Shown here: piece after piece, positions 7,264 to 13,272 of the stretch
Layout: each line of letters starts with the position of its first letter
How positions within the stretch are numbered: the first letter of the stretch is position 1
Position numbers and translations under genes: made by a program
Notes under the pieces: generated by a model
Database searches by the model: none
What the model saw: the letters and a program-made list of their open reading frames with translations, nothing else
What the model was told of the DNA's origin: nothing
DNA from: Chloroflexota bacterium
Lineage (GTDB): Bacteria > Chloroflexota > Anaerolineae > Anaerolineales > Anaerolineaceae
Length of the DNA: 55,535 nucleotides
Assembly: GCA_012729755.1 (NCBI GenBank)
Contig: JAAYCN010000042.1
Location: 1-55,535, forward strand
Direction of reading: 5' to 3'

Positions 7264-8454
7264 ATGAACTTCCCTGAATATTATGAATTTTCGTTTCCTG
7301 TCAAAATCATTTCGGGTCATACCGCGCTGAACAAGCTGCCGGTCGAGTTGGCACAAGCTGGACTGAGCCGACCGCTGGTGATCACTGACCCTGGGGTCGG
7401 AAAGGCGGGCTTGCTGGAGGTCTTTTTGAACGCCTTCGCGGAAAGCGAGATTACAATTGGCGCGATCTTTGACCAGACGCCGCCGGAATCGTCGACCCTT
7501 GTCGTCAACAAGATCGCCGATCTGTTTCGCGAGAAGAACTGTGACAGTTTGATCGCGCTGGGAGGCGGGTCGGTGATTGATACCACCAAGGGTGTGAATA
7601 TCCTGGTCAGCCATGATTCTAATGACATTAATCAGTTTCGCGGCGCTGATATTCTGACCGGCCCCCTGAAACCATTTTATGTCGTGCCAACTACCGCGGG
7701 GACAGGGTCGGAAGCGACGAATACGGCGGTAATCCAGGATCTGGAAAAGGGCGTGAAGATGTTAATCGTGTCGGAGTTGCTGATGCCGAAAGCTGCGGTG
7801 CTCGACACGCGGATGACTTTGACGCTGCCGCCAAAACTGACCGCGGCGACGGGGATGGACGCGCTGACGCACGCGATGGAGGCGTATATCAGCATTCAGC
7901 AGAACCCGATCAGTGATGTGTTCGCCACTCAAGCGATCATGCTGGTGGGGCGGTGGTTGAGGCATGTGACCGCCAACCCGCAGGATAAGAACGGCAGATT
8001 GGCGATGGCCAACGCGAGCACGATGGCGGGAACAGCTTTTTCAAACTCAATGGTGGGGTGTGTGCATTCCATCGGGCACGCGACTGGGGCGGTGGCCCAC
8101 GTGCCGCATGGGGTGGCGATGAGTGTCTACCTGCCGCACGGGCTAAGGCTCAACCTGCCCAAAGCGGCTGAGCGGATCGGTGAGATGCTGCTGTACCTGG
8201 CGGGGCCTGAGGTTTATGTGGCGACTCCACCCGAAGAACGACCCGCGAAAACTATCGCCGAGGTTGAGCGGCTAAAACAGGATTTGTATGAGCTTAGCGG
8301 GCTGCCTCGCACATTGCAGGAAGCGGGGGTGGACAAGGATCTGTTCGAGAAGATCGCGGCGCTGGGGATTAATGATGGCTCAGCGCTGATGAATCCGGTG
8401 GAATTAACGCTTGAAAGAGCCAGACAACTGCTTGACGCGGCCTGGCAGGGCTAA
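7264..8454 (+). CDS. Iron-containing alcohol dehydrogenase
   Basis: A 396-aa group III (iron-dependent) alcohol dehydrogenase that interconverts alcohols and aldehydes with NAD(P)H. The cofactor loop GGGSVIDTTKG, the TAGTGSEAT segment and the metal-binding residues in ATGMDALTHAMEAY and GCVHSIGHATGAVAHVPHG (Asp plus three His) are present. The start was set at the ATG at 7264 after AGAGGAGGAAAG; the longer frame has no ribosome site and overlaps the previous gene. Coupled with the AOR encoded 13 bases downstream, it could reduce the aldehyde made by AOR or supply aldehyde to it. The substrate is unknown. Confidence 0.92.
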   Translation: MNFPEYYEFSFPVKIISGHTALNKLPVELAQAGLSRPLVITDPGVGKAGLLEVFLNAFAESEITIGAIFDQTPPESSTLVVNKIADLFREKNCDSLIALGGGSVIDTTKGVNILVSHDSNDINQFRGADILTGPLKPFYVVPTTAGTGSEATNTAVIQDLEKGVKMLIVSELLMPKAAVLDTRMTLTLPPKLTAATGMDALTHAMEAYISIQQNPISDVFATQAIMLVGRWLRHVTANPQDKNGRLAMANASTMAGTAFSNSMVGCVHSIGHATGAVAHVPHGVAMSVYLPHGLRLNLPKAAERIGEMLLYLAGPEVYVATPPEERPAKTIAEVERLKQDLYELSGLPRTLQEAGVDKDLFEKIAALGINDGSALMNPVELTLERARQLLDAAWQG

Positions 8455-8467
8455 CCGGAGTTCGCAT

Positions 8468-10414
8468 ATGATCAAGGGAGTAACCGGGAAAATCCTTTGG
8501 GTTGACCTGAGCGCGGGTACGTGCGTGGAAGAAAGAGTTCCGGAGGAAGTGTATGAGCACTACCTGGCCGGAATCGGACTGGCAGCCTATTATCTCTATA
8601 AGCGTATTCCTGTCGGCGCGGATCCGCTCGGGTCTGAGAACGTGCTGGCTTTTGTGCCGGGGCTGTTGACGGGAACCGGTTCGATGATGACAGGGCGTTG
8701 GATGGTGGCGGGGAAGTCTCCATTGACGCAAACCTGGGGCGACGCCAACTGTGGCGGCACGTTTGCTCCTGCGATTAAGCAATGTGGTTATGACGGCATT
8801 TTTTTCGTTGGTAAAAGCGAGAAGCCGGTTTATTTATCAGTCAGCGCGGTTGGCATTGAGCTGAAAGACGCCAGCGAATTATGGGGAAAAGACACAAGAG
8901 AGACAGAGGCTCTCATTCAGGCCGCGGCGGAAAAGCGTAAACCGCAGGTGGTTTGTATCGGCCCGGCCGGGGAGAAACTCTCGCTGATCGCTGGGGTTTC
9001 AAACGATCAGGGCAGAATGGCCGCGCGCAGCGGGCTTGGCGCGGTAATGGGAAGCAAAAAACTGAAGGCGATCGCTCTCAATGGGACTCAGCGCATTGAA
9101 GCAGCTGATCGCGAACAGATGAAAGCCCTGACGCAGGGGTTTATGAAACACGCTAAATTTAAACCTAATCTGCCGAGCGGTAAATTCATGCGGTTTTTGG
9201 GGAAGATGATGGCTTTTCTGCCATTGGCGATGCGCCAGGACGGCATGCTGTATAAGATCATGCTGCAAAAATGGGGCACGATCTCGATGAATGAGTTTTC
9301 GATCGTCACCGGCGACGCGCCAATCAAGAACTGGGCTGGGTCAGATAAGGATTTCACCGGGAAGCTCAGCGCGTCAATTAATCCGGATGCGATCAGAGAG
9401 CTCGAACTGAAGAGGTATCACTGTTATTCCTGCCCGATTGGCTGTGGAGGCTATTGCCGCATGTCCGATGGCGGAGAGACGCATAAGCCAGAGTATGAAA
9501 CCATTTTGGCTTTGGGCGGACTGCTGATGAACCGCGATCTGGACTCGCTGATGGTGATGAATGAGAAGCTAAATCGCGCCGGCATGGATTCGATCTCAGC
9601 TGGCGGAACTGTGGCGATGGCAATTGAAGCTTTTGAGAATGGCAAGTTGACGCTGGAAAACACAGGTGGAATTGAGCTGCGCTGGGGAAACGCCGCAGCC
9701 GCGGAAGCATTGATTGATCTGATGATTGAGCGGCGCGGGTTGGGCGATATCCTGGCGGATGGCGCGAAAGCGGCGGCAGAGAAACTCAACAAAGCGTGTG
9801 AAGAATACGCGATCCACGCAGGGGGTCAGGAGCCGGCGATGCATGACGGCAGGGCTGACCCGGGATTCGCGCTGCACTACGCGGTGGAACCGACACCAGG
9901 CCGGCACACGATCGGGTCAATTTTGTATTATGAAATGTTCCAGATGTGGCGCAAATCACAAAAGGTGCCCAAGCCGTCGCCAATTTTTTACCCGAAAAAG
10001 TGGAAATATCGCGGAGACAAGAACAACGCCGGCATCGCTGTCGCCAACAGCAAAATGAAGATGATCATGGATGGAGCGGGGCTGTGTCTGTTTGGCGCGT
10101 TTATCGGCGTGCACCGCCTGCCCATTTTTGAGTGGCTGAACGCGGCGACAGGCTGGAACAAGACCCCTGATGACTACCTGGATATGGGCAGGAATATTCA
10201 GACCCTGAGGCAGGCTTTTAATCAGAAACACGGCGCCCCACTCAGACACGAGATGAGCAATCGGCTGATTGGCAAACCTCCGCTGAGAGAAGGCGCGAAT
10301 AAGGGATGGAGCGTGCCGATTGAGGAGCTCGTGCCGCTGTATTGGCAGGGCATGGGCTGGAATCCTGATAATGGCCGGGTGGCTGAGGCGGACGTCGCTT
10401 TGGAGGGCTTGTAG
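8468..10414 (+). CDS. Aldehyde:ferredoxin oxidoreductase (AOR)
   Basis: A 648-aa tungsten- or molybdenum-pterin AOR, oxidising aldehydes to acids with ferredoxin or running backwards to reduce acids. The N-terminal domain begins GVTGKILWVDLSAG and carries TGTGSMMTGRWMVAGKSPLT, a family hallmark. The [4Fe-4S] cysteines are C319, C322 and C326 in the CYSCPIGC segment, with C540 in GAGLCLFGAF as the likely fourth ligand; C330 is an extra nearby cysteine. The ATG at 8468 has GGAG eight bases upstream, and residues before it are not family-like. Last gene of the SCP2-like/Fe-ADH/AOR operon. Dedicated tungstate transport or pterin genes are not in view. Confidence 0.92.
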   Translation: MIKGVTGKILWVDLSAGTCVEERVPEEVYEHYLAGIGLAAYYLYKRIPVGADPLGSENVLAFVPGLLTGTGSMMTGRWMVAGKSPLTQTWGDANCGGTFAPAIKQCGYDGIFFVGKSEKPVYLSVSAVGIELKDASELWGKDTRETEALIQAAAEKRKPQVVCIGPAGEKLSLIAGVSNDQGRMAARSGLGAVMGSKKLKAIALNGTQRIEAADREQMKALTQGFMKHAKFKPNLPSGKFMRFLGKMMAFLPLAMRQDGMLYKIMLQKWGTISMNEFSIVTGDAPIKNWAGSDKDFTGKLSASINPDAIRELELKRYHCYSCPIGCGGYCRMSDGGETHKPEYETILALGGLLMNRDLDSLMVMNEKLNRAGMDSISAGGTVAMAIEAFENGKLTLENTGGIELRWGNAAAAEALIDLMIERRGLGDILADGAKAAAEKLNKACEEYAIHAGGQEPAMHDGRADPGFALHYAVEPTPGRHTIGSILYYEMFQMWRKSQKVPKPSPIFYPKKWKYRGDKNNAGIAVANSKMKMIMDGAGLCLFGAFIGVHRLPIFEWLNAATGWNKTPDDYLDMGRNIQTLRQAFNQKHGAPLRHEMSNRLIGKPPLREGANKGWSVPIEELVPLYWQGMGWNPDNGRVAEADVALEGL

Positions 10415-10426
10415 CGGGAATTTCAC

Positions 10427-10455
10427 TTGACACGCTGGGGGGCATGGATTATTAT
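10427..10455 (+). promoter_or_regulatory. Promoter of the metQNI transcript
   Basis: A perfect -35 TTGACA (10427-10432), a 17-bp spacer and -10 TATTAT (10450-10455). Transcription would start near 10462, leaving an untranslated leader of about 230 bases before metQ. Confidence 0.8.
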
Positions 10456-10461
10456 GCACGG

Positions 10462-10692
10462 CAAGGTTAAAAATGGCAGGAAAATTCACTCCAATGATTA
10501 ACACTATGGTCATGCGCAGGCGATGGATTTCGTTCTGCGCTGGAGAAGTTGCCACAATCTAGCCATTAAGAACGAGCCCATCGCCTGATTCAATCTGGTA
10601 AGGTAGATGGGTGAAGATCAGTCGACAGACAGCCACCGATCTACCGGTGGCTTTTTCGTTTAGCTTGTTAATCGTTAGAAATTGGAGAAGAA
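10462..10692 (+). promoter_or_regulatory. Structured leader with alternative pairings ahead of metQ
   Basis: The leader can form a long hairpin: 10517-10526 pairs perfectly with 10578-10587 (10 bp), 10530-10536 with 10569-10575 (7 bp), and 10539-10543 with 10559-10563. Downstream, 10602-10608 (GGTAGAT) is complementary to 10639-10645 (ATCTACC) inside the terminator, an antiterminator. A third pairing, 10577-10582 with 10606-10611, competes with both. This is the logic of a transcription-attenuating riboswitch. A methionine transporter suggests SAM or methionine sensing. I do not see the SAM-I core or a T-box motif, so the class is unassigned. Confidence 0.6.
10631..10656 (+). terminator. Intrinsic terminator in the metQ leader
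   Basis: AGCCACCG (10631-10638) and CGGTGGCT (10645-10652) form a perfect 8-bp stem with a 6-base loop, followed by TTTT. It lies about 40 bases before metQ, so it must be bypassed for expression. Its loop and 3' arm overlap the antiterminator pairing described for the leader. Confidence 0.8.
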
Positions 10693-11574
10693 ATGAACAA
10701 AAAACTAAATATCCGAAACGCAGCGCTGACATTCGCGGCTTTCAGCCTGTTTGCGGCAGGTCTTTTATCCGCCTGCCAGACGGCAGCACCGACAGCCGCG
10801 CCATCCGAAGCGCCGGCGGAAGCCACTGTGACTGGGCCTTTAAAAATCAAGATCGGCGTCAGCCCGGTGCCACATGGTGATATCGTTAATTTCGTCAAAG
10901 AAAACCTGGCCGAGGCCGCGGGTCTGGAGATTGAAGTGATCGAGTTTAATGATTATGTATTGCCGAACCTGTCGCTCGATGACAAGTCGATTGACGTCAA
11001 CTTCTTTCAACACCTGCCTTACCTGACAGATTTCAATGCCAGCAATGGCACGGATTTGATCTCAGTGGCTGGGATTCATATCGAACCGCTTGGTATTTAT
11101 TCCAAAGCGCTGAAGTCGCTTGACGAAGTGCCGGATGGGGCGGTAGTGGGCATTCCGAATGACGCTTCGAACGGCGGGCGGGCGCTGAACCTGCTGGCGG
11201 CTAATGGAATGTTGAAATTGAAAGAGGGCGTGGGTTTTGAGGCGACTGTCGCGGATATTGTTGCAAACCCCAAAAATCTGAAGATCACTGAGCTTGAGGC
11301 GGCGCAATTGGTCAGATCACTTGAAGACACGTCTGTTTCGGTAATCAATGGCAACTACGCCCTGCAGGGAGGGCTGACCCCAGCCAAAGACGCGTTGGCG
11401 CTGGAGAGCGGTGAGAATAACCCTTATGTTAATATTTTAGCTGTCAAACAGGGTAATGAAAGCAACCCGGCGATCTTGTTATTGGTCAAACTGCTTACTT
11501 CAGATGAGGTCAAGCAGTTTATCGAAGAAAAATACGCCGGTTCGGTAATCCCGGCTTTCAGCACGCTAAATTAA
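10693..11574 (+). CDS. metQ: Methionine-binding lipoprotein MetQ (NlpA family)
   Basis: A 293-aa lipoprotein that delivers methionine to the MetNI importer. It has a signal peptide with lipobox LLSAC (C28), a short Ala/Pro/Glu linker, then the NlpA fold starting KIGVSPVPHGDIVNFVKE. The conserved DVNFFQHLPYL and IPNDASNGGRALNLL stretches, which contact the ligand in this family, are intact. The ATG has GGAG about eight bases upstream. It is first in a metQ-metN-metI operon controlled by the leader just upstream. Methionine is the expected ligand; D-methionine or derivatives are possible. Confidence 0.92.
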   Translation: MNKKLNIRNAALTFAAFSLFAAGLLSACQTAAPTAAPSEAPAEATVTGPLKIKIGVSPVPHGDIVNFVKENLAEAAGLEIEVIEFNDYVLPNLSLDDKSIDVNFFQHLPYLTDFNASNGTDLISVAGIHIEPLGIYSKALKSLDEVPDGAVVGIPNDASNGGRALNLLAANGMLKLKEGVGFEATVADIVANPKNLKITELEAAQLVRSLEDTSVSVINGNYALQGGLTPAKDALALESGENNPYVNILAVKQGNESNPAILLLVKLLTSDEVKQFIEEKYAGSVIPAFSTLN

Positions 11575-11595
11575 CGCAGTGATAAATCAATGAAT

Positions 11596-11622
11596 GGCAG
11601 GGCACCTTCAAAACGCCCTGCC
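11596..11622 (+). other. Hairpin between metQ and metN
   Basis: GGCAGGGC (11596-11603) and GCCCTGCC (11615-11622) make a perfect 8-bp stem with an 11-base loop and no U tract. It probably protects or processes the metQ part of the mRNA, letting the binding protein be made in excess over the membrane parts. Confidence 0.6.
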
Positions 11623-11638
11623 GCAACAGAGTGAGAAG

Positions 11639-12616
11639 ATGATCACACTTAAAGGTGTCAGCAAGTCATTTGGAAATGGTGGCAACGCCGTGCACGCGCT
11701 GCATGAGGTTGACCTTGAGGTAGGGCGCGGTGAGATTTTTGGCGTGGTGGGGGCGAGCGGCGCAGGGAAGAGCACGTTAATTCGCTGTGTGAACCTGCTC
11801 GAGAAGCCTGATAAGGGCAGCGTGGAAGTGGACGGACAGGTCATGACCACCCTGGGGGACGCGGAGCTGCGCAAGGCCCGTCAGCGCATTGGCATGATCT
11901 TTCAACTTTTTAATTTATTAAGTTCGAGGACGGCGGCTCAAAACGTGGCTTTTCCGCTGGAAATCCAGAAAATGGAAAAGCCACTGAGAGAGAAACGGGT
12001 GGAGGAGCTGTTGGAAATGGTGGGGCTCACTGATAAGGCCGGGTCTTATCCGGCGCAGCTCTCAGGCGGCCAGAAACAGCGGGTGGGCATCGCCCGCGCA
12101 TTGGCAACAAACCCCTCTGTGCTGCTCTGCGACGAGGCTACTTCGGCATTGGACCCGGCTAATACCCGGGCGATCCTGACGTTATTGAAGGATCTCAATC
12201 AGCGGCTGGGGTTGACGATCTTGTTGATTACGCATGAAATGGAAGTGGTCAGACAAATCTGCGACCATGTAGCCATTCTGGAAGAAGGGAGGGTGGTTGA
12301 GCAGGGCGCGATCAGCGACTTAATCGCCAACCCAACCAGCCGGCTCTCGCAGGCATTCTTCCCGCCAATCCTTGACTCACAGCCTGCGGAAGGTTCTGTT
12401 TGGGCGGCGATCACTTTTTTGGGTGGCTCGGCGGATGAACCGGTGCTGACTAATTTAGTGCGCAAGTTTGACGTGGAAGTCAATATTCTGGGTGGGTCGA
12501 TTCAGACCATCGGCGGGCAGCGGGTTGGCCAGCTGCAGGTTGAGCTGAAAGGGGAGCAAACCCAAGAAGCGGTTGAGCACCTGCGCGAATTGAACCTAAG
12601 GGTGGAGGTGAGATGA
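11639..12616 (+). CDS. metN: Methionine importer ATPase MetN
   Basis: A 325-aa ABC ATPase with Walker A GASGAGKS, signature LSGGQKQR and Walker B VLLCDEATSALDP, the wording typical of MetN. The last 65 or so residues form the NIL/ACT-like regulatory domain (FLGGSADEPVLTNL onward), which binds methionine and inhibits transport from inside the cell. The start was set at ATG 11639, because the 15 residues upstream are translated from the intergenic hairpin. The stop overlaps the metI start (ATGATG). Confidence 0.93.
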   Translation: MITLKGVSKSFGNGGNAVHALHEVDLEVGRGEIFGVVGASGAGKSTLIRCVNLLEKPDKGSVEVDGQVMTTLGDAELRKARQRIGMIFQLFNLLSSRTAAQNVAFPLEIQKMEKPLREKRVEELLEMVGLTDKAGSYPAQLSGGQKQRVGIARALATNPSVLLCDEATSALDPANTRAILTLLKDLNQRLGLTILLITHEMEVVRQICDHVAILEEGRVVEQGAISDLIANPTSRLSQAFFPPILDSQPAEGSVWAAITFLGGSADEPVLTNLVRKFDVEVNILGGSIQTIGGQRVGQLQVELKGEQTQEAVEHLRELNLRVEVR

Positions 12617-13272
12617 TGGACTGGTCAAGCTGGCTGCCGCGTTTGTGGGAAGCAACTTATCTGACGCTGTACATGGTGAGCGTTTCGGCGCTTTTTACCG
12701 TGGTGCTGGGGTTGCCGCTGGGGATTTTGCTGGTTAATTCGGATTCGCGAGGGCTGGCGCCACGTCCCTGGCTGAATAAGGTGTTGGGTCTGGTCGTCAA
12801 TGTCGCCCGATCGCTGCCGTTCATCATCCTGCTTGTGGTGATCATTCCGTTTACGCGGGCGCTGGTGGGGACGATCATTGGCCCGACAGCGGCGATCGTG
12901 CCGTTGACGATTGCCGCGGTGCCCTTCTTCGCGCGGGTGGTCGAGACGGCGATCAGGGAAGTGGATCGGGGTTTGGTCGAAGCCGCCAGGTCGATGGGGG
13001 CGACGAATGGGGAAATCGTGCGCAAGGTATTGATTCCGGAGGCGTTGCCATCCATATTGTTGGGTGTGGCACTGACGGTGATCAGCCTGATCTCGTATTC
13101 GGCGATGGCAGGCGCGATTGGAGCGGGCGGCCTGGGGGATGTCGCTATCCGGTTTGGGTATCAGCGGCGCGAAGACACAGTGCTATTGGTGACGGTGATC
13201 TTGTTGATTGTCGTCGTGCAAGGCATCCAGTTATTGGGCAACTGGTTGGCGGCGCGGGTCAATAGATGGTGA
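12613..13272 (+). CDS. metI: Methionine importer permease MetI
   Basis: A 219-aa permease with five to six membrane segments and the inner-membrane coupling region EAARSMGATNGEIVRKVLIPEALP. It forms the dimeric channel of the MetNIQ importer. Its ATG overlaps the metN stop, showing translational coupling. No terminator is visible in the 100 bases that follow, where a possible promoter for the next gene (TTGCTT-17-TAAATT at 13325-13353) begins. Confidence 0.93.
   Translation: MMDWSSWLPRLWEATYLTLYMVSVSALFTVVLGLPLGILLVNSDSRGLAPRPWLNKVLGLVVNVARSLPFIILLVVIIPFTRALVGTIIGPTAAIVPLTIAAVPFFARVVETAIREVDRGLVEAARSMGATNGEIVRKVLIPEALPSILLGVALTVISLISYSAMAGAIGAGGLGDVAIRFGYQRREDTVLLVTVILLIVVVQGIQLLGNWLAARVNRW

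Follow-up and report, generated by a model that had tools for sequence, protein, structure and literature searches.

A switching leader upstream of metQNI

The locus studied here lies in a 55,535-nucleotide stretch of DNA from a Chloroflexota bacterium of the family Anaerolineaceae (referred to as the window), where the methionine importer operon metQNI is preceded by a leader with alternative helices and an intrinsic terminator. The question raised by this locus is what such a leader senses and by which means. The initial annotation had proposed a new or strongly diverged riboswitch with SAM or methionine as the ligand. The comparison of related leaders given below points to another answer: the metQ leader is likely to be a ribosome-mediated transcription attenuator which reads methionine supply via a leader peptide.

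The features of the locus are listed in Table 1. The promoter, described earlier as strong, was borne out by its match to the consensus and also precedes the other leaders, and the 10-bp and 7-bp helices, the competitor, the antiterminator and the terminator were all recovered at the places first given for them. The folding of the window leader was 5 standard deviations better than that of dinucleotide shuffles (z -5.05), and in the window alone, compared with shuffled spacers, the helices gave p = 0.003 (1:2), p = 0.04 (2:3) and p = 0.03 (3:4). The switching RNA is thus real, but the 29-codon ORF that carries segment 1 and hairpin H1 had been overlooked. H1 is formed by differing sequences in most leaders and is weak in L084 and L090.

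Table 1. Features of the metQ leader and operon in the window
Feature	Position	Strand	Details
Promoter	10427-10455	+	TTGACA-17 nt-TATTAT; consensus scan, 11/12 matches
Leader peptide ORF	10473-10562	+	29 codons, MAGKFTPMINTMVMRRRWISFCAGEVATI; stop TAG 10560-10562; runs through first helix
Key Met codon	10512-10514	+	two codons before CGA TGG; same place in 15/15 leaders
Hairpin H1 within ORF	10514-10540	+	GCGCAG 10514-10519 with CTGCGC 10535-10540
Segment 1	10517-10526	+	10-bp helix with segment 2; CAGGCGATGG pairs with CCATCGCCTG 10578-10587
Inner 7-bp helix	10530-10536, 10569-10575	+	TCGTTCT with AGAACGA
Segment 2	10569-10587	+	10578-10587 pairs with segment 1; 10576-10582 pairs with segment 3
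Competitor helix 2:3	10576-10582, 10606-10612	+	(G)CCCATC with GATGGG(T)
Segment 3	10602-10613	+	10606-10612 pairs with segment 2, or 10602-10613 pairs with segment 4
Antiterminator 3:4	10602-10608, 10639-10645	+	GGTAGAT with ATCTACC; lengthens across one mismatch, GTAGATGGGTG 10603-10613 with CACCGATCTAC 10634-10644
Segment 4 (pairing with segment 3)	10634-10645	+	overlaps terminator 5' arm and loop
Intrinsic terminator 4:5	10631-10656	+	AGCCACCG-ATCTAC-CGGTGGCT, then T run; arms 10631-10638 and 10645-10652
metQ	10693-11574	+	substrate-binding lipoprotein (NlpA/MetQ family); Pfam Lipoprotein_9, E 1.8e-90
metN	11594-12616	+	ATPase with NIL domain; profile match
metI	12613-13272	+	permease; profile match

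The matches of metQ to the NCBIfam MetQ models were below the model cut-offs. Directly upstream of the leader is a gene encoding aldehyde ferredoxin oxidoreductase (window 8411-10414), which ends 12 bases before the -35 box.

No Rfam family reached threshold in the window, and the sub-threshold matches in the leader had E values of at least 6. The search of the whole window, together with that of the leader at a lax threshold, returned nothing real, in agreement with the initial annotation that the leader belongs to no known riboswitch class. A T-box reading was rejected, there being no Rfam match and the GGTGGG stretch belonging to segment 3. The single SAM-I riboswitch match of the genome (G000:C103:38267-38366, minus strand, 85 bits) is located upstream of metK.

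Distribution and conservation of the leader

Relatives were collected by a MetQ search, first among 60 relatives and then among 147 genomes of Anaerolineaceae. Within the genus of the window, seven genomes (the window included) have the same device ahead of metQ, as do seven more spread over five other genera, giving 14 metQ leaders from six genera of one family; in an eighth congener genome the locus is cut by a contig end. A covariance model built from the 14 leaders recovered all of them and one new leader in G441 (L130 541-757, G441:C207), which carries a Met-rich ORF (MKNFQIREMLCMCLCTMAKRWCLPIFENDSSSG) behind a separate promoter and whose terminator differs greatly in sequence from the others. 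This 15th leader precedes a gene whose first 69 codons resemble a class I aminotransferase by eye and which is cut by the contig end. The fragment had no match in Pfam, nor at E 1e-8 in 12 relatives; it could possibly encode a methionine aminotransferase.

The MetQ search in the wider class (298 genomes) led to the same family only, and the metQ genes of genus g31 stand mostly behind a permease gene, with no such leader seen. The pattern search for the conserved DNA with two mismatches gave mostly noise, and the exact pattern search in 84,980 species gave 38 matches, of which only those in five congeners were real and the rest lay in unrelated contexts. The covariance-model search of the order yielded no high-scoring new leader outside the family and one 27-bit match in G468; weak matches in G451 (C17), G459 and G386, which owe their score to the terminator, were discarded on visual inspection.

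As seen in the alignment, the leader sequence is strongly diverged outside a few blocks, and most columns without any variation fall within the terminator, segments 1 and 2 or the key Met codon. The leader is kept in relatives with compensatory changes, a point that had been set beforehand as one on which the proposal of a switch could fail.

Leader ORF and key Met codon

A short ORF with the same C-terminal part was present in 15/15 leaders. In 14 of them the start ATG is 6-7 nt past the -10 box, where transcription should start, and these ORFs therefore look leaderless; the exception is the window ORF, which starts 17 nt past the -10 box behind AAGG. Every ATG start is in frame with the key Met codon, though the ORF lengths differ by whole codons. 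After the key Met codon come two codons that vary and next CGR TGG (Met-x-x-Arg-Trp), as in MVMRRRW (window), MVMPRRWH (congeners), SMMMRRRW, CMCSCMMMRRRW, MMMPGMCLWLMDRRW, WLMRRRW and WLMPGRW.

Met codons are crowded before this fixed point. In the 14 metQ leaders, with the start codon excluded, they made up 35 of 216 codons when counted through the key codon versus 1 of the 205 beyond it (p 4e-10), and the crowding was still observed when the key codon was left out (21/202, p 3e-6). Some leaders have only one or two internal Met codons (one in L088), which is fewer than in classical control runs. Elsewhere the peptide varies freely, with 96 nonsynonymous and 50 synonymous codon differences, giving no sign of selection on the peptide itself; both points sit less well with an attenuator.

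The ORF and its Met codons bear directly on the riboswitch reading, in which the leader would be a new or diverged riboswitch for SAM, SAH or methionine and the ORF a coincidence. The conserved alternative helices with their terminator, which form folds that need no protein, would suit such an RNA, and the lack of an Rfam match would be expected of a new class. However, a riboswitch would have no use for the ORF, for its frame or for Met codons massed ahead of one fixed position; no conserved ligand-binding or aptamer-like core beyond the switching segments was seen in the leader alignment, which instead contains an ORF with Met codons in the register of helix 1, the usual appearance of a leader-peptide attenuator; and the SAM-I element of this genome precedes metK instead. 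A riboswitch of this kind is therefore highly improbable, and the switching RNA is most likely not a riboswitch. Methionine, named at first as the likely signal, is retained in that role, while the proposal of an RNA binding SAM or methionine is not.

Another possibility is that the nascent peptide itself acts, Met-x-x-Arg-Trp halting the ribosome upon binding of methionine or SAM and not in response to tRNA charging. The invariance of Arg-Trp in the 15 leaders is what such an arrest peptide would show, but Arg-Trp is encoded by CGRTGG, which is RNA segment 1, so that its conservation is explained by the RNA; the one variable base of CGRTGG is mostly compensated in segment 2, and the residues around Arg-Trp are free to vary. 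Very little credence is accordingly given to peptide arrest.

Relay of mutually exclusive helices

In all 15 leaders the pairings form a relay in the order 1:2, 2:3, 3:4 and 4:5, with 3:4 acting as antiterminator and 4:5 as terminator. Segment 1, a CGRTGG core (GCGATGG with flanks), lies inside the ORF, and segment 2 lies just past the stop codon. Helices 1:2, 2:3 and 3:4 overlap one another in 15/15 leaders. Compared with dinucleotide shuffles, Fisher p values over the 15 leaders were 2e-14 (1:2), 9e-12 (2:3) and 6e-11 (3:4), which are overstated because the leaders are related; with nine representatives they were 1e-10, 2e-8 and 2e-7, respectively. Scored singly, helix 3:4 was weak in L084, L085, L087, L088 and L130.

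Pair counts from the alignment for helix 1:2 and the terminator gave 92.8% paired, with 32 cells changed on both sides as compared with at most 8 in slid controls. Segment 1 hardly varies, maybe because each segment must match two neighbours, so that a change runs through the whole chain. What sequence comparison shows directly is the ORF with its Met codon at a constant position, along with the terminator and a set of helices that exclude one another.

Ribosome position and proposed mechanism

For every codon in turn, each leader was folded as far as the terminator loop with the ribosome placed as a block on that codon, its footprint reaching to +12; the folding is at equilibrium and ignores timing. 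With this footprint, a ribosome up to the key Met codon keeps 1:2, mostly together with 3:4, whereas a ribosome one to three codons past it, and up to about +11, leads to 2:3. In 11/14 leaders the predicted switch from 1:2/3:4 to 2:3 fell on the key Met codon or no more than about two codons away from it. The cleanest case was L085, in which H1 and 2:3 form without a ribosome, 1:2 and 3:4 with the ribosome at the key Met codon, and 2:3 at the next codon. L002, L007 and L089 were computed to be without the switch, and little change in 3:4 was computed for L084, L086 and L088. With a footprint to +15, the switch came about one codon earlier in several leaders, and 1:2 was computed to be allowed again once the ribosome had reached the final codons or the stop codon.

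A ribosome with the key Met codon in its A site reaches to about where GCGATGG begins. Counted from the start of the P-site codon this is the 12th base, roughly as far as the ribosomal helicase extends. An early idea, that the Met-stalled ribosome covers segment 1 and termination follows, was dropped after the codon-by-codon folding.

From the conserved layout and the computed switch position, we infer that the short ORF is translated, that charging of tRNA-Met is the signal and that starvation turns the operon on. In the proposed mechanism, a ribosome would begin translating the ORF close to the transcript's 5' end and, when charged tRNA-Met is scarce, would stop with the key Met codon in the A site. 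The stalled ribosome would cover the 5' arm of H1 and leave the GCGATGG core of segment 1 (from 10520) free, so that 1 may pair with 2 and 3 with 4, the terminator would be blocked and metQNI would be read. When methionine is plentiful, the ribosome would move over segment 1, 2 would pair with 3, and 4 would fold with 5 into the terminator. Given the computed switch position, metQNI should be read preferentially when methionine is short. All 14 metQ leaders of the set stand before a methionine importer gene, and for an importer, turning on under starvation is the useful direction.

The folding of the ribosome-free RNA bears on a further alternative, namely that with little initiator fMet-tRNA the leader is translated less, and read-through takes place on RNA that is not being translated. 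Three points would fit this alternative: RNA without a ribosome is already computed to form 1:2 and 3:4 in the window and several other leaders, the ORFs have a leaderless appearance, and methionine is used in initiation too. Against it, an elongator Met codon stands at a fixed place with Met codons crowded before it, and L084, L085 and L089 are computed to fold to 2:3 without a ribosome, so that initiation sensing of this kind appears very unlikely. Since methionine is the start residue as well as the signal, initiator and elongator tRNA-Met could both be read; a methionine-specific sensor working on a new principle, in which the leaderless ORF reads both tRNAs or the nascent peptide directly senses methionine or SAM, is considered unlikely.

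Comparison with known systems

Leader-peptide attenuators have been described for many amino acids. In its ORF with control codons, its exclusive helices and its terminator, and in the use of the amino acid of the operon as the signal, the metQ leader resembles the trp/his attenuators (E. coli trpL and hisL; Firmicutes His leaders, PMC2965389, PMC9413887). It differs from them in its methionine control residue, its mostly leaderless ORF, its Chloroflexota host, and its five segments instead of four. With one more segment than in the trp/his type, the stalled ribosome would have to leave segment 1 free and not cover it.

The leaderless mycobacterial cysteine attenuators, as they are represented in PMC13236596 (citing Canestrari 2020), likewise have a leaderless ORF responsive to an amino acid; they contain cysteine runs and belong to another phylum, and the likeness drawn here is one of ORF type. 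The Corynebacterium ilvB-II motif (PMC10272879) was also first a candidate structured RNA and then a uORF attenuator, and is a precedent for the correction from riboswitch to attenuator made here, although it concerns branched-chain amino acids and the ilvBNC operon in Actinobacteria. The SAM-I riboswitch and the Met T-box are cis-RNA controls of methionine genes as well; neither has a match in the leader, where sensing would need translation.

In a 2010 survey of premature terminators, leader-peptide systems were known from Proteobacteria and Actinobacteria only, and Firmicutes were added; in a survey of Actinobacteria, no conserved RNA element was detected upstream of methionine operons. A search of the open-access literature turned up neither a leader-peptide attenuator for methionine nor one in Chloroflexota, and within that scope the novelty is provisional. 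If the proposed mechanism is true, methionine would join the amino acids with leader-peptide attenuators, and the known layouts would be extended by one of five segments, where segment 1, set at a fixed spacing, is left free by the stalled ribosome. Switching leaders without a riboswitch match would then deserve a check for short ORFs first.

Other short ORFs upstream of transporter genes

In addition, short ORFs with a high content of Ile, Val, Leu and Tyr were observed at L133 466-570 (G378, reverse strand of the locus; MTKFIGIMVIIFIMWVLYYLYYGKAPVLGWENNG) and L135 509-619 (G439; MINSISIYVYVYIFMLMVMLIYHSRFRVRLTEVKTK). Both are followed by an intrinsic terminator and a livK-like gene, which resembles the gene for the binding protein of a branched-chain amino-acid ABC transporter. 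Their layout resembles that of the metQ leaders, which counts in favour of the attenuator reading, and the two are probably additional attenuators of the leader-peptide type within Anaerolineaceae.

A Met-containing short ORF of different layout (MKRASMKYMIKAPLYFLWSCL) was also found upstream of metQ on the reverse strand of L009 (161-226, G030), behind a tRNA-Cys-like gene and followed by the inverted repeat GCGGGT...ACCCGC and TTTT.
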